Below are positions 22,592 through 33,655 of a stretch of DNA of 38,152 nucleotides, piece after piece. The translations under genes were made by a program, and so were the position numbers. How positions within the stretch are numbered: the stretch's first letter is position 1; each line of letters begins with the position of its first letter. The notes beneath the pieces were generated by a model, which worked only from the letters and a program-made list of their open reading frames with translations, did not search any database and was not told the DNA's origin. Source of the DNA: Meiothermus rufus DSM 22234 (lineage in GTDB: Bacteria; Deinococcota; Deinococci; Deinococcales; Thermaceae); assembly GCF_000423425.1 (NCBI RefSeq), contig NZ_KE384017.1, forward strand, positions 9,667-47,818. Direction: 5' to 3'.

Positions 22592-23527
22592 ATGAGGCTT
22601 AGCGCTCGGATTTCGCGTTTTTGGCAAAAAGTGGGTTTTTCCTCTAACCAAGCTGCCCTAGGGGGCAGTGCGGCCCTCGAGGGGGTGATGATGAAGGCAC
22701 CGGAGGCCTGGGCCTTGGCGGTGCGGCTGCCCAATGGGCAGATTCACGTGGAGCGCCACGAGGAAGTGGCCCTGACCAAGAAGTATCCCTGGGCCCGGTT
22801 GCCCTTGCTGCGGGGGGTGGTGGCCTTGTGGGATGCCCTGAGCATCTCTTACAGGGCCCTTTCTCGCAGCGCTGAATTAGCCGGGGAGGAAGAGGAAAAG
22901 CTTTCTGGTCTGGCGATGTACGGCACCCTTGCGGTCTCTTTGCTTGTTGGGCTCTTCCTGTTCGTATGGCTGCCGGCCCGGCTGGCGGGTTTGTTGGTAG
23001 ACGAGGAGCGCTTCCGCTTTTTGTTTTACCTGCTGGCGGCCCTGTTCGAGACTGCTATTCTGATTGGCTACCTGGTCTTCATTGGCCGGATGAAGGATAT
23101 GCAGCGCTTTTTCATGTACCACGGCGCCGAGCACAAGGCCATCGCCGCTTACGAGAAGGGCCTCGAGCTCACGGTGGAGAACGTGCGTGCCCAGCCGGCC
23201 TACCATCCCCGCTGTGGTACCAGCTTCATCGCCTTTACCGCGGTGGTGGGGATTTTTATCTACAGCTTCTTTCCCCCGCTAACCCTGGCCTGGTACTGGA
23301 TTTTCCCTCGCTTGCTGCTTATCCCGGTGGTGGCGGCGGTTTCCTTCGAGGTACTGCGCTACTCGGCAGCCCACCACGACCCCATCTCTCGCCTGTTCCG
23401 TTGGATAGGCTTTAAGTTCCAGATGCTCACCGTACGGGAACCTACCGACGAGATGATCGAGGTAGCCATTGCCAGCACCAAGGCGGCTTTGGCCCGGCCC
23501 CTCCAGAGGCCAGAGGTGGTGGCCTAG
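22592..23527 (+). CDS. YqhQ-like membrane protein (DUF1385)
   Basis: 311 residues. The family hallmark LGGSAALEGVMMKAP is near residue 23, and FMYHGAEHKAIAAYEKG and HPRCGTSFI follow in the second half. Membrane helices: about 110-130 (GTLAVSLLVGLFLFVWLPA), 140-165 (FLFYLLAALFETAILIGYLVF) and a pair between FIAFTAVVGIFIYSFF and LLLIPVVAAVSFEVL. DUF1385 proteins are inner-membrane proteins of unknown biochemical role with invariant His/Glu/Cys residues suggestive of a metal site. The stop TAG overlaps the sbcC stop as palindromic CTAG (23524-23527). Confidence 0.9.
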   Translation: MRLSARISRFWQKVGFSSNQAALGGSAALEGVMMKAPEAWALAVRLPNGQIHVERHEEVALTKKYPWARLPLLRGVVALWDALSISYRALSRSAELAGEEEEKLSGLAMYGTLAVSLLVGLFLFVWLPARLAGLLVDEERFRFLFYLLAALFETAILIGYLVFIGRMKDMQRFFMYHGAEHKAIAAYEKGLELTVENVRAQPAYHPRCGTSFIAFTAVVGIFIYSFFPPLTLAWYWIFPRLLLIPVVAAVSFEVLRYSAAHHDPISRLFRWIGFKFQMLTVREPTDEMIEVAIASTKAALARPLQRPEVVA

Positions 23528-26238
23528 TCCTGCCAGCGCACCCGGCTACCGGCGGGGGATTTTTCCACCAAGAGTCGGGCTGGTAACCGCTCGGCTAAAG
23601 CCTCCACGTGGGTGACGATGCCAACCAGGCGGCCCTGTGTAGGCAGGGCTTCCAACACCCCGGCGACCTGTTCTAGGGTTTCCCCGTCGAGGGTGCCGAA
23701 ACCTTCGTCGAGGAACAAAGCCCCGATCCGGCCCCGCGAGAGGTGTTCGGAAAGGGAAAGGGCCAGGGAGAGGCTGGCCATGAAGCTCTCGCCCCCCGAG
23801 AGGGTGCGCACCGGGCGGGAGGCCTGGGTCCAGCGGTCGAGCACCTTGTACTCGCCTTCCTCGAGGTGCAGGCTGTAACGCTGGTGGGAAAGGGCCTGGA
23901 TCAGCGCAGAGGCCCGCTGTAGGAGGCTGGCTTGGTAGCGCTCGAGCAAAAACGCTGGGAAGCGGTCGCTCCGTAGGTCTTGGGCAAGGGTTTGCCACAG
24001 GTCGTGTTCTTTCTCCAAGGCGGCTTTCCTTTTTTCCAGTGCCCGCTGGCGCTCCAATTGCATTTGCAGGCTTTCCAGTCTGGTCTGGGCACGCCCCAGG
24101 CGTTGTTGAACCTCGCTTAGTGCTCTTTGGAGGGTGTGGAGCTGGGCTTTTTTCTCGGCAAGCTGGGCCTCGCTCACCGGCTCTTCCTGGCGGATGTTCT
24201 TGAAGCGCTCTAGCTGGGATTCGATCTCCACCCCTTCTCGCTCGTGCTGCTCCTTTCGCTGGCGCAGGGCCTGCACCTCCGAGGGATGGAGAAGGGCCTG
24301 TTTCAGGGCCTGTGGACTGGCGAACCGGGCCTCTTGCAGTAGGGTTTGTAGGGTGGCTTCTTGTCGGGTGAAAGCCTCTTCCAGAACCCGCACGCGCTCC
24401 TCTTGGCGCAGGGATAGGGCCTGGGCTTCCTTTAGCTGGGCCTCGAGTTCAGCCAGCTGCCGGGCTTGGGCCTCCAGGGTCTGGTGCTGTTGGCGCAGGT
24501 TGGCCGCGTAGGCCGCGACCGGCAAACCCCCCGTGGCCGCGCGGATGGCTTGGGCCAAGGCGGCCAGGCGGCGGTTCTGCTCTTCCCGCAAGGCTTCCAC
24601 CGGGCCTAGCCCCTCTAAGCGGGCCTGGAGGGTGGCAAGCTCAGCGCGGGCCTCGGCCTCTTCTTGTCGGCGCTGGGAAAGCCGCTGATTTAGCCTAGGT
24701 AGGCTCTCTAGAAGCTGTTTGTGGCGCTCCTGTTTGGCCCTGTATTCGGCCCGCAGCTCCTCCAACGCCTGGGTTCGGGCCTTTAGGTCTGCCTCCAGCA
24801 GGGCAAGGTCGGCCAGGGCGCGGGGCGGGGGGAGCTGAACGAGGGGCTGTTCGCACAGCGGGCAGGGCTGGCCCAGGTGCAGATGGCTGCGGAACGCCTG
24901 GAGGCCCTGGCGGGCCCGTTCTTGCTCTAGGGCCGCCTCAGCCTGTTCTTTGGCAGCCTTGGCGGCGATGCCTTCCGCCTTGAGGTGCTCGAGCTCTTTT
25001 TCTAAGGCGCTGGCTTCCTCCTGGGCTTTTTGTAGCTCGGCCTGGGCTTCGTCCAGGGCCTTTTGCGCCCGCCGGTGCCACTCCTGTTGCCGGCTGAGTT
25101 CGGCTATTTGGCGCTCCGCGTTGTGCAGAAGCTCGAGGCGCTCTTCGTCAAAGGGCAAAGGAGAAGGGTGCTCTAGGTTCAGGTGGCCCCCGTAGCGCTT
25201 GAGCCAAGCTTCCTGGCTTTGCAGCAGGGGAAGCTGGTTCAGGCGCTCTTTGAGTTCTTCCAGCCGGCCAGGGTCGAAGCCCCGGCCTAGGGTGTGGTAC
25301 CGGGCCTCTAGCGCCCCCAGCTTTTCCTTTTCCCCCTCGAGCTGAGCATGCGCTTGCTCTAGCTCGCTTTGGCTTTTCTCAAGAGCCTCCCAGTGCGGCC
25401 AGATACGCTCGGCCCGATCATGTCGCTCCAGCCGCGCGGCGACCTCCTGCATGTGGGGCCGTTCTTTTTCCCACTGCTCCCGGCGACGGCGCAGCCTGGC
25501 CAGCTCGAGGTGCTGCTGGTATCTTTCCTCCAGGGCGCGTAGCTCCTTTTCTTCTTGCTGACGGCGGCGCTCCAGTACGCCTGCCTCTTGCGCTAGCTTT
25601 TTTAGCTCCTCTTCCAGCGCGGCCACCCGGTCTTCCCGGGCCTCGGCCAGGGCAGAGAGTTCCCCCTCCAGGCGCTGTATTTCCTCTTTCAGGCTTTTCT
25701 GGTGGGTGGATGCCCGTTCCTGCATGGCCTGCAGGGACTCCAGACCGTAAAGCTTGATCAAGGTCTCGCGCCGCTCCTTAGGCGAACCGCGCAGAAACAG
25801 GTCGAACTGCCCCTGCGGCAGCAGGATAGCCCGGGTAAAGGTCTCGTAGTCCATGCCCAGGATTTCCGCCAGTTTGCCGTCTAGCTCCCGTGCTTTTTCC
25901 GAGGACGGGTGGGTTTTCCACTGGCCCTGTCTGAGGTATTCCAGCCGGTTCTGGTTTTCCCGGCCCACCACCCGTACCACCCGCCAGCTCTCTTCTCCCA
26001 GGGCAAAGGTGAGTTCGACCTTGGCCGACTCGGCGGCAGGGTGCTTGAGTTCCCTAAAGTCCCTCGAGCCCAGGCGGGGGGTGGCTTTGTAGAGGGCAAA
26101 GGTGATGGCGTCGAGCAGGGTGCTCTTGCCAGCTCCGGTCTGGCCGGTGATGGCGAAGAGTTCGATATCGTCGAAGCTAATTTCCTGGGGCTGGATATAG
26201 GCCCCAAAACCTTCGATGCGCAGTTTGAGCGGTCTCAT
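23524..26238 (-). CDS. sbcC: Exonuclease subunit SbcC (Rad50-like SMC ATPase)
   Basis: 904 residues. N-terminal ATPase half with Walker A GQTGAGKST, long antiparallel coiled coil rich in Leu/Glu/Arg/Gln, zinc-hook C459-P-L-C462 near the centre, and the C-terminal half with ABC signature LSGGES, Walker B ALFLDEGFGTLD and the H-loop IVTHVEAL. With SbcD it forms the complex that removes protein-blocked ends and cleaves DNA hairpins at palindromes. The ATG is 5 bp after the sbcD stop, without a good ribosome site, so translation is likely coupled. Confidence 0.95.
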   Translation of the reverse strand: MRPLKLRIEGFGAYIQPQEISFDDIELFAITGQTGAGKSTLLDAITFALYKATPRLGSRDFRELKHPAAESAKVELTFALGEESWRVVRVVGRENQNRLEYLRQGQWKTHPSSEKARELDGKLAEILGMDYETFTRAILLPQGQFDLFLRGSPKERRETLIKLYGLESLQAMQERASTHQKSLKEEIQRLEGELSALAEAREDRVAALEEELKKLAQEAGVLERRRQQEEKELRALEERYQQHLELARLRRRREQWEKERPHMQEVAARLERHDRAERIWPHWEALEKSQSELEQAHAQLEGEKEKLGALEARYHTLGRGFDPGRLEELKERLNQLPLLQSQEAWLKRYGGHLNLEHPSPLPFDEERLELLHNAERQIAELSRQQEWHRRAQKALDEAQAELQKAQEEASALEKELEHLKAEGIAAKAAKEQAEAALEQERARQGLQAFRSHLHLGQPCPLCEQPLVQLPPPRALADLALLEADLKARTQALEELRAEYRAKQERHKQLLESLPRLNQRLSQRRQEEAEARAELATLQARLEGLGPVEALREEQNRRLAALAQAIRAATGGLPVAAYAANLRQQHQTLEAQARQLAELEAQLKEAQALSLRQEERVRVLEEAFTRQEATLQTLLQEARFASPQALKQALLHPSEVQALRQRKEQHEREGVEIESQLERFKNIRQEEPVSEAQLAEKKAQLHTLQRALSEVQQRLGRAQTRLESLQMQLERQRALEKRKAALEKEHDLWQTLAQDLRSDRFPAFLLERYQASLLQRASALIQALSHQRYSLHLEEGEYKVLDRWTQASRPVRTLSGGESFMASLSLALSLSEHLSRGRIGALFLDEGFGTLDGETLEQVAGVLEALPTQGRLVGIVTHVEALAERLPARLLVEKSPAGSRVRWQD

Positions 26239-26243
26239 AGGTT

Positions 26244-27395
26244 CTAGGCTTCAGCGGCGTGGGCTTCGGCGAAGACCTTGCGGAAAGCGTCCAGCAGCTC
26301 AGGGCTGGCGGCCTGTCCGGTGCTCTTTCGGTACTGGGCGTAGGCCTCTATCCAGTCCAGGTTTTCCGGCGGGGCTGGGGGCTGGTTCGAGTTGGGGTCT
26401 GGGGGGCTAGTCTCTACCTCTACCTCGAGCAGGCCAGGCAGCTCCTTGAATAGCCGCTCGCGCAAGCCGGGGCTAGGGGAGCCCTCGAAGATTATCTTGC
26501 TGTAACCAGCGAAGGTGCGCACCTCTTCCAGGCGACGGTCCAGCGAATCGCTATTCAGGCGGAAGGTTTTGAGGGGCCGGCCCCAGCGCTCGTTGACCGG
26601 GTGCACCTGGGGGGGCAGGCCAGGCTCGAGCTCCACAATCAGGGCCCCACGGGGGGTTTCTTCCCCCTCGCCGAAGTCGAGTTGGATGAGCGAGCCCGCG
26701 TACCAGGCTACTGGAGCCTCGGCCACCGGCTGCTGGCGGTGTAGATGGCCCAGAGCCACATAGCTTAGGCGCTGGGGCAGATCGGTGGGTTGCAGCGCAT
26801 AGCTGTTGGTGGTGTGAAAGGTAAACTCCCCTCCTCCCAGCCGACCTCCGGCCACGGTCAAGTGGGCTACCAGCAGGTTCAGGTCGGAGCTTAGGCCCTG
26901 GGCTAGGTTTTGTAGGATTTTCTGCATTCCCAGGCCGTACTGGGCCTTCCACTGGGCTGCATCACCTTCCAAGAGGTGCAGGGCCTTGACCAACCGGCGC
27001 TCGGAAAGGAAGGGCAGCAGGGCTATCCGGGCCTGCTGGAAGGGTACCACCCCCCCCTCCTCGGCGAAGCGCACCTGACCCAAAACCTTGGCCCCGGTCA
27101 GGGAGAGCAGCGGGGCTAAGGCCTCGAGGCGCTCGCGGCTGTCGTGGTTGCCGGCAATGACCATGGCCGGAACCTTTTGCTCGAATAGACCTAGGAAAAA
27201 CTCGTAGGCCAGAGCCTCAGCCTCGGCGGAGACCACGCTGCGGTCGAAGAGGTCTCCGGCTACCAGCACCAAATCGATCCGCTCGGAACGAACCAGCTCC
27301 AAAAGGCGCTTTAGGGCCTGCCCTACCTCGGCGGTGCGCTCCTGCCCCTTGAGTACCTTTCCCAGGTGCCAGTCTGCTGTGTGCAGAATCCGCAT
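26244..27395 (-). CDS. sbcD: Exonuclease subunit SbcD (Mre11-like)
   Basis: 383 residues. The metallophosphatase motifs appear in order: MRILHTADWHLG, AGDLFDRS, GNHDSRERLEAL, then VAHLTVAGG and YVALGHLHRQQ. The C-terminal capping and SbcC-binding part ends PELLDAFRKVFAEAHAAEA. It is the Mn-dependent nuclease partner of SbcC. A TAGAAT box 6 nt before the ATG (27402-27407) implies a leaderless mRNA. It diverges from murJ. Confidence 0.95.
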   Translation of the reverse strand: MRILHTADWHLGKVLKGQERTAEVGQALKRLLELVRSERIDLVLVAGDLFDRSVVSAEAEALAYEFFLGLFEQKVPAMVIAGNHDSRERLEALAPLLSLTGAKVLGQVRFAEEGGVVPFQQARIALLPFLSERRLVKALHLLEGDAAQWKAQYGLGMQKILQNLAQGLSSDLNLLVAHLTVAGGRLGGGEFTFHTTNSYALQPTDLPQRLSYVALGHLHRQQPVAEAPVAWYAGSLIQLDFGEGEETPRGALIVELEPGLPPQVHPVNERWGRPLKTFRLNSDSLDRRLEEVRTFAGYSKIIFEGSPSPGLRERLFKELPGLLEVEVETSPPDPNSNQPPAPPENLDWIEAYAQYRKSTGQAASPELLDAFRKVFAEAHAAEA

Positions 27396-27401
27396 GGGCA
27401 G

Positions 27402-27447
27402 ATTCTACCCCAAGAAGGTTGGCCCGTTGGGCCAGGCCAGGTATAGT
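27402..27447. promoter_or_regulatory. Divergent promoters of sbcDC and murJ
   Basis: Minus strand: TAGAAT (27407-27402) lies 6 nt before the sbcD ATG. Plus strand: TTGGCC (27419-27424) and TATAGT (27442-27447) with a 17-bp spacer, 16 nt before the murJ ATG. The two -10 regions are about 35 bp apart. Confidence 0.55.
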
Positions 27448-27463
27448 CTGGGGGGCGTTTTTT

Positions 27464-28951
27464 ATGTCGCGCATACGGCGAAACACCCTCTTGGTCATGG
27501 CGGGTACCCTTTCCAGCCGCCTGTTGGGACAGGTGCGCCAGACCGTCCTAACCAATCTGCCCCTTCCCGACGTCACCAAGGATGCCTTCTGGATGGCCTA
27601 CCGCATTCCCAATTTGTTGCGCGAGCTTCTGGCCGAGGGAGCCATCCAGAACGCCCTTATACCGGTGTTGACCAACCTCCCCCCGGCAGAGGCGCGGGTG
27701 TTTGCCCGCCGCTTTGGGGCTTTTCTGCTGGGGATTAACCTGCTCATTTTGGGCCTTGGCCTGCTGTTCGCCCCGGCCATCGCCCAGGCCTTGCTCTGGC
27801 TGGCTGAGCTGGCCCGGGGCCAGGCCAGCCCCTTGCGCGATCCGCTGGTCTTCGAGCAGCTGGTTTTGCTGATCCGGCTGGTTATGCCCTTTTTGCTCTC
27901 CATCTCCATGGCGGTGTTGTTTTCTTCCATGCTTCAATCGCGGGAGCGTTTCGGCATAACCAGCTTCAGCCCGGTAGCCTTCAACCTGGCTTCCATTGGC
28001 CTGATGCTGCTTTTCCCCAGCAGCGTGGTGGCCCTGGGGCTTTCGGTAGCTTTGGGGGGGGCGTTGCAGGCTTTGGTCCAGCTTCCGGCATTGCGGGGGT
28101 ATGGCCTCGAGTTCCGCTGGCATCCCGCTTTCCGCCAGGCTCTAGGGCGGATTGGCCCTTTTGCCTTCACCACCTCGGTGCGACAGTTTTTGAACCTGGT
28201 GCTCTTGAGCATCCTGGCGGCCTACCCTTCGGCAGCAGTGACCGGATTCCAGAATGGCGAGCTCATCTTCACCACTGCGTTGGGCTTGCTGGCGGTTTCG
28301 CCAGCCATGGCGGCTTTTCCCCGCCTTTCGGCCCTAGCCCAGGACGACCGAGCCGCCGCCCGGGCGCTGTTGGGGCGTCTTTTGCACCGGTTGGCGCTGC
28401 CGCTGGCCTTTGTGGCTGCCATGATGGTGGCGCTGGCGCCTTGGGTGGTGGGCCTGCTTTATGCCCTTACCACCAACTTCTCCGAGGCCAATCGTGCTTT
28501 TACCACCCAGACCCTGATGGCGCTGGGCCTGGCCCTTCTGCCCTGGGGTCTAAACCAGCTCATGCTGCGCGGGTTCTATGCGGTAGGCCAGGTGGGTTCA
28601 GCGGTTCAGGTGACGGTAGGGGTGGCCCTGCTTAACACCCTGGGCTACTGGCTTTTGCGCGACCAGGGCTTGTTCGCCTTAAACCTGGCCACTGCCGTAG
28701 CGGGCTGGGTGGGCCTAGCCGCCTATGCCAGGCGCTTGCAACGCCTGGCTATGCTCGAGCCCACCCAGCTATGGCCCGTGCTGGTCAAGGTGCTGCTGGC
28801 CGCCTTGCCGGCGGGCTGGGTAGCCCACCAGGTGGCCCAGCACTTTGGCTTTCCCACCTTCTTTCTGCAAAACCTGCTGCCGTTGGCCGCCGGAGGTTTG
28901 GTGGGGCTGGGTGTATTTGTGGGGATCGCCTACCTTTTGAAACTGCGCTAG
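27464..28951 (+). CDS. murJ: Lipid II flippase MurJ (MviN)
   Basis: 495 residues, polytopic with about 13-14 hydrophobic helices. The MurJ start is typical: [22 protein letters not shown], then [29 protein letters not shown], which contains the charged groove residues needed for lipid II transport. It moves lipid-linked peptidoglycan precursor across the inner membrane. The ATG at 27464 is chosen because homology begins there; the open frame 15 codons upstream covers the promoter. The stop shares CTAG (28948-28951) with the convergent tandem-HspR gene. Confidence 0.95.
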
Positions 28952-29667
28952 CTGGCCGATGGCTTGGGGGCAGATTGTTCTTTGGCTGGTTTCAACTCGC
29001 GCAACAAGGCCAGGCGCAAGCGGGCAATCTCGGCCTCGAGGCGGTTTTGCTGGATGTCCAGCTCGTCGCGCAGCCGGATGATTTCCTCCACCCCGGCCAG
29101 GTTGACCCCCAGCTCCTGGGTCAGGCGGCGGATTTCTCTGAGTTTCTCCACATCCCGCTCGGAGTACAGCCGGGTCTTGCCCGAGGTGCGGCTGGGGGTT
29201 ACCAGACCCTCGCGCTCGTATAGGCGCAGGGTTTGGGGGTGCATGCCCACCAGTTCGGCAGCCACCGAGATGATGTAGACGGGCCGGTCTTTCTCGTCGA
29301 GCTTTGGGCTAGGCCGCTGACCTGGGGCGGGCAGGGCCGGGGGTGTTTTGAGGGCCTCCAGCTTCTCGCCCAACTCGGCCTTCAGCCGCTCCACTTCTTC
29401 GCGGAAGCGCTGCTCGAGGGCCCACAGCTCATCACGCAGCCGCATGATTTCCTCCACCCCGGCCAGGTTGACCCCCAGCTCCTGGGTCAGGCGGCGGATT
29501 TCCCGCAGTTTTTCCACATCCCGCTCGGAGTACAGCCGGGTCTTGCCCCCCGAGCGCTTGGGTCGGATCAGCCCCTTGCGCTCATACAGGCGTAGGGTCT
29601 GGGGGTGCATGTCTACCAGTTCGGCAGCCACCGAGATGATGTAGACGGGACGGTCTTTTTTGTCCAT
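28948..29667 (-). CDS. Tandem double-headed HspR-like MerR regulator
   Basis: 239 residues containing two complete, nearly identical HspR-type MerR domains (residues 2-81 and 124-203, about 71 of 80 identical) joined by a helical linker ([16 protein letters not shown] and a Pro-rich stretch). Each has [33 protein letters not shown] and [15 protein letters not shown]. Differences cluster at residues 31-40 ([11 protein letters not shown] versus [11 protein letters not shown]), in the wing. A second helix and Lys/Ala tail follow domain two. HspR normally is a single-domain repressor of chaperone genes that binds HAIR operators as a dimer; this fusion could act as a built-in dimer. At DNA level 59 bp from 29078 are identical to 29444 onward, suggesting recent duplication or gene conversion. 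Confidence 0.93.
29059..29664. repeat. Intragenic 240-bp tandem duplication in the HspR-like gene
   Basis: 29059-29298 and 29425-29664 are direct copies offset by 366 bp (122 codons), with identical stretches of 59 bp and 35 bp. They encode the two MerR domains. Confidence 0.9.
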
Positions 29668-29682
29668 AAACGAAGCGGGCTA

Positions 29683-29738
29683 AACGCCCTTGATAAAAAC
29701 ATTATACGAAAACCTCCAAAATAAATGTAAAGGGCGTT
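29683..29738. promoter_or_regulatory. Promoter and 9-bp inverted repeat upstream of the tandem HspR-like gene
   Basis: On the minus strand a perfect TATAAT (29706-29701) follows a TTTACA/TTACAT -35 candidate with a spacer of 18-19 bp. AACGCCCTT at 29683-29691 and its exact complement AAGGGCGTT at 29730-29738 bracket the -10 box, with 38 bp between. This is a candidate autoregulatory operator. The classical HAIR sequence (CTTGAGT-N7-ACTCAAG) is not present. The rest of 29739-29895 contains the palindrome ACCCTAGGGT (29853-29862) and nothing else recognisable. Confidence 0.6.
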
Positions 29739-29895
29739 GTCCGTAGGTTTGTTGGCTGGGTAGCTTCCGAGAAAAGCTCCTCCAAACTTGTACCCTAAAG
29801 CCGACACCAACGTGTGAGGCATGGCCTTTTTAGTGACTTTGCTCGAGCCCTCACCCTAGGGTAGGGGGCATAGGGGTATCTCTGGCGTTGCGACG

Positions 29896-30627
29896 CTACC
29901 GGGGCTTAACCTGCGGGGTGGCCGAGAGCACCAGCCGTACAAAACGGATAAGCCGGGGAAAGCGGCCCCAGCGCCTGCGGTCGGTGGCTATGCGCACCAA
30001 CCACTCTATTTTTAGCCGCTGGGCCCAGCCGGGGGCCCGCTGAACCTCTCCGGCCAGTACGTCGAGCATACCCCCTACACCGATGGCGACCCGGGCCCCA
30101 AGCCGGGCCTTGTTGCGGTGGATGAAGGTATCCTGCCGCTCACCCATACCCACCACCAATAGGTCGGGTTGGGCTTGCCGAATGGCCTGAACCACGGCTT
30201 CTTCGTCCTTGAAGTACCCATCCTGTACACCGCAGACCTGGACGCCCCAGCGGGCCTGGGCGGCCTCGGCAGCCCGCTGGGCTACCCCCGGGGCGGCCCC
30301 CAGAAAATAGACCCTGAGCCGGGGGCCCATACGGGCAAAAATCGCTGGTAAGATCTCTGCGCCGGGTACCCGGTCGGCCAGGCGGAAGCCGGTCAGCCGC
30401 CGCACAGCCCAGACAATGCCCACCCCATCCGCGGTAACCAGCTCGCTTTCCCACAGGGCCTGGCGCAGAGCAGGGTCGCTTTGCGCCCGTACTACCGCCT
30501 CGGGGTTGGTGGTGATGATCTGCTGGCAGTGGGCCTGGGGTTGGGCGATTTTCGCCTCGATCCAGTCCAGGGTCTGTTCCAGGCTCACCAGGTCTACCGG
30601 GGTTCCCAGAATAGCCACGCGCTGCAT
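29896..30627 (-). CDS. WecG/TagA/CpsF-family glycosyltransferase
   Basis: 243 residues. Family blocks: VAILGTPVDLVSLEQTLDWI at the start, IITTNPEAVVRAQSDP, ELVTADGVGIVWAVRRLTG, RVYFLGAAPGVAQRAA and LLVVGMGERQDTFIHRNK, ending with RIATDRRRWGRFPRL. These enzymes add N-acetylmannosamine or a related sugar to an undecaprenyl-linked acceptor in surface polysaccharide or teichoic-acid-like synthesis. The exact sugar is not predictable. The C-terminal basic/hydrophobic stretch likely binds the membrane. It starts 3 bp after the ComB-like stop, so the two are co-transcribed. Confidence 0.92.
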   Translation of the reverse strand: MQRVAILGTPVDLVSLEQTLDWIEAKIAQPQAHCQQIITTNPEAVVRAQSDPALRQALWESELVTADGVGIVWAVRRLTGFRLADRVPGAEILPAIFARMGPRLRVYFLGAAPGVAQRAAEAAQARWGVQVCGVQDGYFKDEEAVVQAIRQAQPDLLVVGMGERQDTFIHRNKARLGARVAIGVGGMLDVLAGEVQRAPGWAQRLKIEWLVRIATDRRRWGRFPRLIRFVRLVLSATPQVKPR

Positions 30628-30630
30628 AGC

Positions 30631-31362
30631 CTATCCTGCCTGGAAACAAAAGCCGTATCGGTCCTTGGAAAGACCGTAGCGTTGGGCCTCGAGCACCCGC
30701 ACCTGACAGAGGCGGGGCACCTTGTCTTCCACGCTGACCAGGCTGCCCAGGGCTAGCTCTTCGCTCTGGCCGGCTTTGAGCAACCGTTGGCCTAGCTCAG
30801 ACTGCACTAGGGATTCCTGAGGGTCGGGGAAGGATTTAAGTAAGCTGATGGCCAAGCGTGCCCCTTCTTGTAGGGCATTAGGTTGCTCTAGGGATTGGTG
30901 CAGCCGTTTGGCAATGAAACCCGCGGCCACGGTGTTGGCTAAGCTGGGCTCGAGGGCTTGGGCTGCCGCCACCACGGTGGTTATCTGCTTAGCCAGGGCG
31001 TACTGGACAGCATGCCGGGCATTGCGGAAGTAGGCCAGGGCGCTTCCCACCGGCATCTGTTCCAATGAAGCGGCCAGGTCGCGCGACAAGAGTACACAGG
31101 TTTGGCCCTCGAGGCGGAGCCTGCCCAGGGTTTGCAGCGAGAGGCCCTGGTGGAAGCCCTCGGGGGGAAGCCCCTCTTCTTCCCCTAATAGAAGGCCCCC
31201 TTCCTCAGCCAGGATGCGGGCTGCCCGCACGCTTTTAGCCACCCAGACCGCCCGGGCCCCACCTGCCAACAGCAGGCCCACCGCACTGCCGTAAAACACG
31301 TCTGCCAAAAGCACGGGCTGAGGGTAAGGAGGGTTGGGAACCAAATCGACCCGGAGTGTCAC
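30631..31362 (-). CDS. ComB-like (2-phosphosulfolactate phosphatase family) protein, divergent
   Basis: 243 residues, GTG start. The fold pattern of ComB is visible: LLADVFYGSAVGLLLAGGARAVWVAKS, the LLGEEEGLPPEGFHQGLS block, and SLANTVAAGFIAKRL near the position of the SLEDALCAGAI motif. However, the TTTNGT-like stretch common in the family reads LLSRDLA here, so 2-phosphosulfolactate phosphatase activity is doubtful. Coenzyme M synthesis is not expected in this organism, so a different substrate or a non-catalytic role is more likely. A perfect TATAAT (31399-31394) lies upstream on the minus strand and GGAGG is 10 nt before the GTG. Confidence 0.75.
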   Translation of the reverse strand: MTLRVDLVPNPPYPQPVLLADVFYGSAVGLLLAGGARAVWVAKSVRAARILAEEGGLLLGEEEGLPPEGFHQGLSLQTLGRLRLEGQTCVLLSRDLAASLEQMPVGSALAYFRNARHAVQYALAKQITTVVAAAQALEPSLANTVAAGFIAKRLHQSLEQPNALQEGARLAISLLKSFPDPQESLVQSELGQRLLKAGQSEELALGSLVSVEDKVPRLCQVRVLEAQRYGLSKDRYGFCFQAG

Positions 31363-31425
31363 GTGGGGCTAGCCTCCATAAAATTCCTGCGGCATTATAA
31401 GCCACATTGGTGGGTTGAAGCCGCA

Positions 31426-31959
31426 CTAGCTGCGCAGCAGCAGCACCGGGCCCTCGCCCAGTGGGGGAAGGTCGGCCAGGCTTTCCAGGCCAAACAGCTC
31501 CAAAAAGCGCTCGGTGGTTCCGTACAGCTTGGGCCGTCCAATAGCCTCTTTTTCCCCTACCACCTGTACCAGTTGGCGCTCTAGTAGGCTTTCCAGCACC
31601 CCCTCCACACTTTTGCCCCGTAGGGCTTCCAGCTCGGCCCGGGTGAGGGGTTGCTGATAGGCGATGAGGGCCAGCACCTCGAGGGCAGCCTTGGATAGGC
31701 GCGGTGGGGTAGGGCGCAAGACCTGCTCCACTGCGGCAAGGTGCGAAGGATGAACCACCAGCCGCCAGCCCCCGGCCACCCGCTCGAGCTGTACACCGGT
31801 CTTGCCCTCGCGAAGCTCGTGCTCGAGGGCCACGATGGCCCTGAGCAGGGCTTCCTCTGGGCCCAGGGGTGCGAGCTCGCGTAGGGATAAGGGCCGGCCT
31901 GCGGCGAAGAAAACCGCAAGAATCTGGGCTTTTAGGGTTGGGGTATCCGGTGTGCTCAT
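31426..31959 (-). CDS. scpB: Segregation and condensation protein B
   Basis: 177 residues forming two winged-helix domains, with the conserved core LSKAALEVLALIAYQQPLTRAELEALRGKSVEGVLESLLE and GRPKLYGTTERFLELFGL. ScpB binds ScpA and SMC to build the condensin complex. scpA is not in this window; in many genomes it lies next to scpB. The ATG of MSTPDTPTL is used; the open frame extends 19 codons more but without homology. It diverges from pilC, with 42 bp between the starts. Confidence 0.93.
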   Translation of the reverse strand: MSTPDTPTLKAQILAVFFAAGRPLSLRELAPLGPEEALLRAIVALEHELREGKTGVQLERVAGGWRLVVHPSHLAAVEQVLRPTPPRLSKAALEVLALIAYQQPLTRAELEALRGKSVEGVLESLLERQLVQVVGEKEAIGRPKLYGTTERFLELFGLESLADLPPLGEGPVLLLRS

Positions 31960-31986
31960 GTCACCTACGCCTAACCTTCCCGTGGC

Positions 31987-31992
31987 TATACT
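31987..31992 (+). promoter_or_regulatory. -10 box of pilC
   Basis: TATACT lies 9 nt before the pilC ATG; no convincing -35. The divergent scpB start is 28 bp away. Confidence 0.4.
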
Positions 31993-32001
31993 AGGGGCAG
32001 T

Positions 32002-33222
32002 ATGCCAACCTATCAATATAAGGCCAGGGATAAGCAGGGGCGGCTGATAAACGCGGTGATTGAGGCCGACGATATCCGCACAGCCGCCCGCGCGCTGCGG
32101 GAAAAGGGCCTGTTCATCGCCGAGATTAAGGAACCGGGGCGGGGCCTGCAGGCCGAGATCAAGCTACCGGGTCTGGAGCCTAAGCCGGGGTTGAAAGACC
32201 TCGCCATCTTCAGCCGCCAGCTGGCCACCATGCTCAACGCGGGCCTTCCCATTGTGCAGGCCCTGGCTATTTTGGAGAGGCAAACCGAGAAAAAGAAGTT
32301 CCAGGAGATTCTCAAGCAGATTCGTACCGAGGTGGAGGGAGGGGCTAACTTCAGTGAAGCCCTGAGCAAGCACAAATTGTTCAGCCGGCTCTACATCAAC
32401 CTAGTGCGGGCCGGTGAGACCTCGGGTACCCTGGACGCCATTCTGGATCGCTTGGCCACCTTTTTGGAAAACGAGCTGGCCCTTCTGGGCAAGATTCGCT
32501 CGGCCCTGACCTACCCGGCCATTGTGTTTGTGTTTGCGGTGGGGGTGACCTACTTCCTCTTGACCAGCATAGTGCCGCAGTTTGCCCAGATTCTGACTGG
32601 CCTAGGCTCCGAACTACCCCTTTTGACCCGCGCCCTGATGGCCATCTCCGATTTTCTGCGCCAGGGTACCCTCTTCATCCTTTTGATAGCGGTAGGGCTT
32701 TACTTTGCCTACCGCTCCTATTACCGCACCGATAAGGGGCGGCACCAGATCGATCAGATCAAGCTCAAGCTGCCGGTGTTCGGCAACCTGATGAAAAAAA
32801 GCGCCCTGGCTCGCTTTTCCCGCACCTTTGGCCTTCTGATTTCCAGCGGGGTGAACATCGTCGAAGCCCTGGACATTACCAAAGGAACCGCCGGGAACGC
32901 CATTGTAGAGGACATCCTCGAGCAGACCAAGATCGCCATCCAGGCCGGTGAGCCGCTCTACACCACCATCCAGGCCAATCCCCAGGTCTTTCCGCCTATG
33001 GTCAGCTCCATGATGGCCATTGGCGAGGAGACCGGGGCTTTGGATACCATGCTGATCAAGATAGCCGACTTCTATGAGCGTGAGGTGGATGAGGCCGTGA
33101 GCGCCCTCACTGCGGCCATCGAGCCTCTGATGATTATCTTCCTGGGCTTTATCGTGGGCGTGATTGTGGCCGGGATGTTCCTGCCGCTGTTCAAGATCAT
33201 CGGAACCCTGTCAGCGCAATAA
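32002..33222 (+). CDS. pilC: Type IV pilus / type II secretion inner-membrane protein PilC (GspF)
   Basis: 406 residues. It begins MPTYQYKARDKQGRL and has two homologous GspF cytoplasmic domains (FSRQLATMLNAGLPIVQAL and FSRTFGLLISSGVNIVEAL) and three membrane helices (around 170-190, 220-240 and the C-terminal 375-395, ending in GMFLPLFKIIGTLS). PilC is the platform on which the PilF/PilT motors act; in Thermaceae it is needed for pili, twitching and natural transformation (family knowledge). No other pilus gene lies in the window. Its 3' end overlaps the EVE gene on the other strand by 26 bp. Confidence 0.95.
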   Translation: MPTYQYKARDKQGRLINAVIEADDIRTAARALREKGLFIAEIKEPGRGLQAEIKLPGLEPKPGLKDLAIFSRQLATMLNAGLPIVQALAILERQTEKKKFQEILKQIRTEVEGGANFSEALSKHKLFSRLYINLVRAGETSGTLDAILDRLATFLENELALLGKIRSALTYPAIVFVFAVGVTYFLLTSIVPQFAQILTGLGSELPLLTRALMAISDFLRQGTLFILLIAVGLYFAYRSYYRTDKGRHQIDQIKLKLPVFGNLMKKSALARFSRTFGLLISSGVNIVEALDITKGTAGNAIVEDILEQTKIAIQAGEPLYTTIQANPQVFPPMVSSMMAIGEETGALDTMLIKIADFYEREVDEAVSALTAAIEPLMIIFLGFIVGVIVAGMFLPLFKIIGTLSAQ

Positions 33223-33655
33223 TCGCCTGGGCCACCTCGAGGTCCACCGGCATCACCGAAAGGCGGTTGCCCCGGCGCAGCAGGGGAAGCTGGTCGGGGC
33301 TAAATTGCTGCCGCAGGGCCTCTAGGGTTAGCATGCTGGGGAATTTCGCCGCAAAGCCTACCCGCACCGTCCACCAGCGGGGCTGCTCCGGCTTACTTTT
33401 GGGGTCGAAGTAAGGGGAGTGGGGGTCGAACTGGGTAGGGTCGGGGCAGGGGGCCTCGAGCACCCGGCAAAGCCCCACGATGCCCGGAGGTTGGGTGCTG
33501 GAATGGTAGAAAAAGGCCAGGTCGCCTACCTGCATGGCCCGTAGGTAGTTGCGCGCCTGGTAGTTGCGCACCCCATCCCAGAGGGTGCTTTGCTGTTGGG
33601 CGAGGTCGTCGATGCTGTAGACCTGGGGTTCAGACTTGAGTAGCCAGTAGCGCAT
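33197..33655 (-). CDS. EVE domain protein (modified-nucleobase reader fold)
   Basis: 152 residues, a single EVE domain (PUA-like). Markers: MRYWLLKSEPQVYSIDDL, WDGVRNYQARNYLRAMQVGDLAFFYHSS and GIVGLCRVLEAP, then WWTVRVGFAAKF. The W/Y/R aromatic cage positions are retained. EVE/YTH-like domains bind modified bases such as 5-methylcytosine in DNA or modified RNA; in bacteria many are tied to restriction or tRNA biology, but no such partner is adjacent here. The start at 33655 is an ATG; its promoter is unclear. Confidence 0.93.
   Translation of the reverse strand: MRYWLLKSEPQVYSIDDLAQQQSTLWDGVRNYQARNYLRAMQVGDLAFFYHSSTQPPGIVGLCRVLEAPCPDPTQFDPHSPYFDPKSKPEQPRWWTVRVGFAAKFPSMLTLEALRQQFSPDQLPLLRRGNRLSVMPVDLEVAQAIIALTGFR

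Follow-up and report, generated by a model that had tools for sequence, protein, structure and literature searches.

The hspR gene of Meiothermus rufus DSM 22234 encodes two near-identical DNA-binding domains in one polypeptide, which raises the questions of how old this fusion is, what keeps its halves alike and how a single chain with two such domains would act on an operator. The gene lies in a window of 38,152 nucleotides, by which we mean the whole stretch of DNA analyzed. Its features, in window positions, are as follows.

28948..29667, minus strand: hspR gene of the fused type, 239 amino acids, ATG at 29667 and stop codon at 28948-28950
29425..29655, minus strand: MerR/HspR DNA-binding domain of the N half, residues 5-81
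29059..29289, minus strand: MerR/HspR DNA-binding domain of the C half, residues 127-203
29290..29424, minus strand: end of the N-half long helix of the dimerization type, which runs to about residue 105, followed by the Pro-rich linker at about 106-126, from the AF2 model
28951..29058, minus strand: C-half long helix, ending at about residue 225, with the C-terminal tail after it, from AF2 secondary structure
29548..29577, minus strand: end of the N-half recognition helix plus wing, residues 31-40, exempt from conversion by comparison of halves and genomes
29182..29211, minus strand: equivalent wing of the C half, residues 153-162, a Meiothermus C-half signature by the same comparison
29425..29547, minus strand: converted segment of the N half, domain codons 37-77, residues 41-81, with 116 of 123 nucleotides identical to its partner
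29059..29181, minus strand: converted segment of the C half, residues 163-203, from site pairing by genome

A recount upheld all the figures of the sequence-only reading, which had named no strand and had seen two near-identical MerR/HspR domains in this gene. Between residues 2-81 and 124-203, 71 of 80 positions are identical, and the two stretches are encoded by repeats of 240 nucleotides each (29059-29298 and 29425-29664; spacing, 366) with 88% identity and a longest identical run of 59 nucleotides. The differences were likewise found to be concentrated where that reading had placed them, with six of the nine at residues 31, 34, 35, 37, 39 and 40 (counterparts within 153-162). As AF2 predicts a helix at residues 22-30 and wing strands at approximately 37-46, residues 31-40 correspond to the end of the recognition helix plus the wing. 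The recognition helix has the same sequence in both halves.

The window protein matched the NCBIfam model NF047377 (HspR, fused homodimer type) over its full length (400.1 bits; cut-off, 300; model positions 1-214 of 214), and its two HspR domains share one open frame, as this type requires. Each half also matched the HspR model NF047375, and the identification as HspR is further supported by operators that agree with the sites found in the outgroup family f5, whose HspR has a single domain. Pfam searches detected PF13411 (MerR_1) twice and, together with fold matches to the MerR family, indicated a winged helix-turn-helix followed by a long dimerization helix, the arrangement that defines the MerR superfamily. 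The fused two-domain architecture has already been catalogued by the NCBIfam curators and is not new; the window protein exhibits no family-defining difference from it. No paper describing a two-domain HspR was found in literature searches, which had subscription journals largely outside their reach.

With the single-domain HspR proteins of Streptomyces, Helicobacter and Mycobacterium (NF047375; PMC6102357), the window protein shares HspR-scoring halves, an operator of the HAIR type with an N7 spacer and chaperone targets, but it has two domains per chain, and the upstream operator arm in its genome is CTTGAYA rather than CTTGAGT. HspR of Deinococcus radiodurans (DR_0934), a member of the same phylum, is a negative regulator that binds HAIR sites close to the promoters of chaperones and proteases, according to a passage of PMC6888292 citing Schmid 2005. 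The GlnR/TnrA and CadR-type regulators, for which structures are solved, share the MerR domain fold but consist of single-domain subunits with other ligands and targets. The best PDB sequence match was 4r4e, and the nearest folds in Foldseek were GlnR and CadR (7tea and 6jgx), each aligning with one half at a time. In the AF2 model (41 homologues; pLDDT 77, pTM 0.31), each half consists of a MerR domain with its own long helix (48-105 and 170-225), while linker residues 111-123 mostly have a pLDDT of <50 and the model does not fix where the halves lie with respect to each other.

The gene lies outside any dnaK operon, in a neighbourhood (23524-33655) of SbcC/SbcD-like genes and genes for MurJ, a WecG-type glycosyltransferase, ScpB, a 2-phosphosulpholactate phosphatase family protein, an EVE-domain protein and a type II secretion/pilus F protein. 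The promoter region of hspR (29683-29738) contains an inverted repeat, AACGCCCTT / AAGGGCGTT, with 38 nucleotides between the arms, which is not HAIR-like.

A total of 111 genomes of the phylum, from five families (f1 to f5), were surveyed with NF047377 at a cut-off of 300 bits, and 50 had matches above it. The fused form was present in four of the five families (f1 to f4) and about fourteen genera, with an interdomain spacing of 35 to 48 residues in all fused members, while f5 has a single-domain HspR. Named records of Meiothermus and Calidithermus carry the fused form, and a survey control detected NF047377 in Thermus composti and Deinobacterium chartae as well. Genus g1 was taken as Meiothermus because the closest relatives are records bearing that name, and the sister genus g4 (27 genomes; 2.0 to 2.4 Mb) is probably Thermus. 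A plasmid search turned up no record in which a fused relative spanned 80% of the query.

Being common to four families, the fusion must be old. The sequence-only reading had proposed a recent duplication, and the 88% DNA identity would fit a tandem duplication in the window lineage whose halves have simply not yet diverged. The distribution of the fused form contradicts this, and the same N and C signature residues distinguish the halves in 16 to 18 of 18 Meiothermus genomes; the explanation is now so improbable that it was discarded. An assembly artefact, which that reading had named as an event that would undo it, was ruled out as the origin of the fused gene by assemblies of 1 to 6 contigs with the same architecture (G031, G037, G040, G051, G050, G060, G062, G070 and G009) and by the named Meiothermus and Calidithermus records; nor are the homologues in relatives all single-domain.

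Some genomes of the fused families appear to have a one-domain hspR. In six cases (L053, L054, L056, L057, L067 and L068; genomes G047, G054, G063, G068, G016 and G017), the protein is untruncated, with a single domain between the N-terminal start and a tail of the C-terminal type. Recombination between the repeats, with real loss of a domain, or collapse of a short-read assembly could each have produced this form, and both fit. Draft contigs break within or right beside hspR in several further genomes (L055, L059 to L064, L069, L070 and L072), and the repeat is a systematic assembly breaker. At L058 (g4, G064), a frameshift in the linker places the two domains in separate overlapping frames, due either to a sequencing error or to a genuine split. 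As short-read assemblies are broken at these repeats, and may be collapsed there, calls of single-domain HspR in these genera deserve checking.

The similarity of halves this old was examined by site, by silent-site identity and by phylogeny. Within a g4 genome the two halves were on average 98% identical at four-fold degenerate codons, while the same half was only 72 to 74% identical between g4 species. In 14 of 15 g4 genomes, the halves were closer to each other than to their counterparts in any other g4 genome. A DNA tree of the halves exhibited pairing by genome in most g4 genomes and in g5, f2 and f4/g12, whereas in most Meiothermus genomes the N halves were separated from the C halves, with 99% SH-aLRT for the C clade. 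The silent-site identities and the tree indicate an old duplication homogenized by intragenic gene conversion, so that the earlier suggestion of conversion keeping the copies alike was borne out. In the same tree, both halves of L006 (f4, G009) branched with the g4/g5 group and away from other f4 genomes, and a transfer of hspR between families is possible.

Meiothermus has a local exception to this homogenization. Domain positions 15, 27, 30, 31, 33, 35 and 36 distinguish the two halves, each in 16 to 18 of the 18 genomes compared. Sites were then compared between the window and three congeners (L011, L016 and L018), giving six pairwise counts that are not independent, as they come from four genomes. 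In codons 37-77, 7 to 12 sites paired the halves by genome and 0 to 1 by half; in wing codons 27-36, 6 to 12 sites paired by half and none by genome. This pattern indicates that conversion in Meiothermus recurs beside the wing and spares the wing itself. Concerted evolution with a wing exception seems to be the undescribed part of this system; no description of the conversion pattern with a fixed wing difference was found in the literature searched.

The simplest reading of these comparisons suggests that selection keeps the two Meiothermus wings different. The wing difference could instead be neutral, with conversion tracts failing to cross the mismatched stretch and the protein acting as a symmetric dimer. 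Heterology does block conversion, and g4 and f4 carry the same wing in both halves of a protein that evidently persists; in addition, the clpB and dnaK operators are asymmetric with single-domain HspR too. The neutral explanation sits poorly, however, with the recurrence of differences at domain positions 27, 30, 31, 33, 35 and 36 in 16 to 18 of the 18 Meiothermus genomes, and with L011, in which tracts identical between the halves flank the wing on both sides (codons 1-15 and 38-77), indicative of conversion either side of it. We regard neutrality as a serious possibility that falls short of being probable. Selection for a difference would imply an asymmetric repressor in Meiothermus, as the comparisons suggest.

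Candidate operators were sought in the window genome. Four sites, and no others, matched the pattern CTTGAYA-N7-RCTCAAS perfectly, and each precedes a chaperone gene, although the pattern was partly derived from these four sites and its specificity does not count as independent evidence.

C3:22547: candidate HAIR site upstream of dnaK, perfect pattern match
C4:30561: candidate HAIR site upstream of hsp20, perfect pattern match
C4:34424: candidate HAIR site upstream of clpB, perfect pattern match
C7:53267: candidate HAIR site upstream of groES-groEL, perfect pattern match

HAIR-type inverted repeats at the dnaK, clpB, hsp20 and groES promoters of the genome encoding the protein are what is expected of an HspR repressor. 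Another trait of HspR repressors is DnaK acting as co-repressor or heat sensor. All four sites are oriented alike relative to their genes, the CTTGACA arm lying upstream. An unbiased genome scan for HAIR sites allowing 3 mismatches was uninformative by count (66 matches versus 64 in the control), and no HAIR site was found within the window. Autoregulation through a HAIR site before the gene or operon of HspR itself is known for some HspR proteins but is not universal. Among the hspR genes examined, none had a site with 9/10 core matches in the 250 bp before it, and the window hspR, with no strong HAIR site before its own gene, differs in this from HspR of Helicobacter pylori, which is autoregulated (PMC6102357).

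Matching sites precede clpB in f2, f3, f4, f5 and other Thermaceae and precede dnaK in most of them. In f5, with its single-domain HspR, a similarly polarized site precedes clpB and weaker sites precede dnaK, so that the operators most likely existed before the fused chain took the place of a homodimer on them. Asymmetry of the operators as a product of the fusion was dismissed as stated, since those of clpB and dnaK are polarized in f5. Overlap with the −35 element was also rejected as the full cause of asymmetry; it fits hsp20, and perhaps clpB, but not dnaK and groES, for which the best promoter in the window genome, as judged by eye, is located downstream of the site.

A HAIR-like site preceded groES in 8 of 8 Meiothermus genomes examined, the window genome included, while no HAIR-like site was detected upstream of groES in nine g4/g5 genomes (L199, L205, L206, L208 to L212 and L214), and this operator may have been gained or lost between the sister genera. 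The site is polarized in Meiothermus, whereas its inner bases in f5 are symmetric (GT or GC in both arms), a contrast that is suggestive only. Between its promoter and its start codon, groES also has an inverted repeat resembling CIRCE, TTGACACTC-N9-GACTGTCAA (L106:1857-1883; G000 C7), and the window genome encodes an HrcA-like protein scoring below the curated cut-off; groESL may be under double control by HrcA and HspR.

We consider it likely that the fused-type HspR acts as a covalent pseudo-dimer on one HAIR operator (CTTGAYA-N7-RCTCAAS) at dnaK, clpB, hsp20 and groES-groEL, exerting a repression that is relieved by heat. The pseudo-dimer had been proposed from the sequence and agrees with the NF047377 name and with operators like those of single-domain HspR. 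By analogy with MerR, the two long helices would pair within one chain as the helices of two subunits do. One fused molecule would occupy one operator, the bound repressor would block transcription from the chaperone promoter and heat would relieve this block. In Meiothermus, recurrent conversion homogenizes both domains except for the wing. The paired helices of MerR dimers are antiparallel, and the end of each lies near the DNA-binding domain of the partner, so that a linker of approximately 20 residues suffices. This established property and the single candidate HAIR site per promoter in the window genome argue against the halves pairing between chains to form a tetravalent repressor capable of bridging or looping two operators. 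Such pairing is unlikely, even though AF2 does not place the halves confidently and a model of several dimers binding in cooperation has been put forward for H. pylori HspR (PMC6102357).

Whether the two halves of the pseudo-dimer have different half-site preferences, as the sequence-only reading had suggested, received a divided answer. The idea is plausible given a wing difference fixed genus-wide despite conversion, but the asymmetry of the clpB and dnaK operators was already there in single-domain relatives. As some operators were polarized before the fusion, polarity alone is no proof of halves reading different arms. Nothing in the analysis pointed to the changed heat response that the sequence-only reading had offered as another option. 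A coupling of symmetric operators with identical halves was consistent at clpB, where the second arms found in g4, g5 and f4 lacked the GT/GC ending (no clpB site whatever was found in G049), but inconsistent at dnaK, where the operators were asymmetric in g4 and f4. It is conceivable, although we hold it doubtful, that the Meiothermus protein is a one-chain asymmetric dimer in which conversion refreshes the core, selection maintains the wing difference and each half reads one arm of a polarized operator, giving a fixed orientation at every heat-shock promoter.

Fusion of a homodimer into one chain leaves the halves free to diverge, while their tandem identity exposes them to gene conversion. 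Sister genera exhibit both outcomes, with homogenized halves in g4 (probably Thermus) and diverged wings in Meiothermus. As similar operators serve single-domain, homogenized and diverged forms of HspR, these organisms provide a tractable natural experiment on a palindrome-reading repressor becoming asymmetric. The added value lies in the contrast between homogenized and wing-diverged proteins that act on operators of a similar kind, through which the question of how an asymmetric repressor arises becomes testable.
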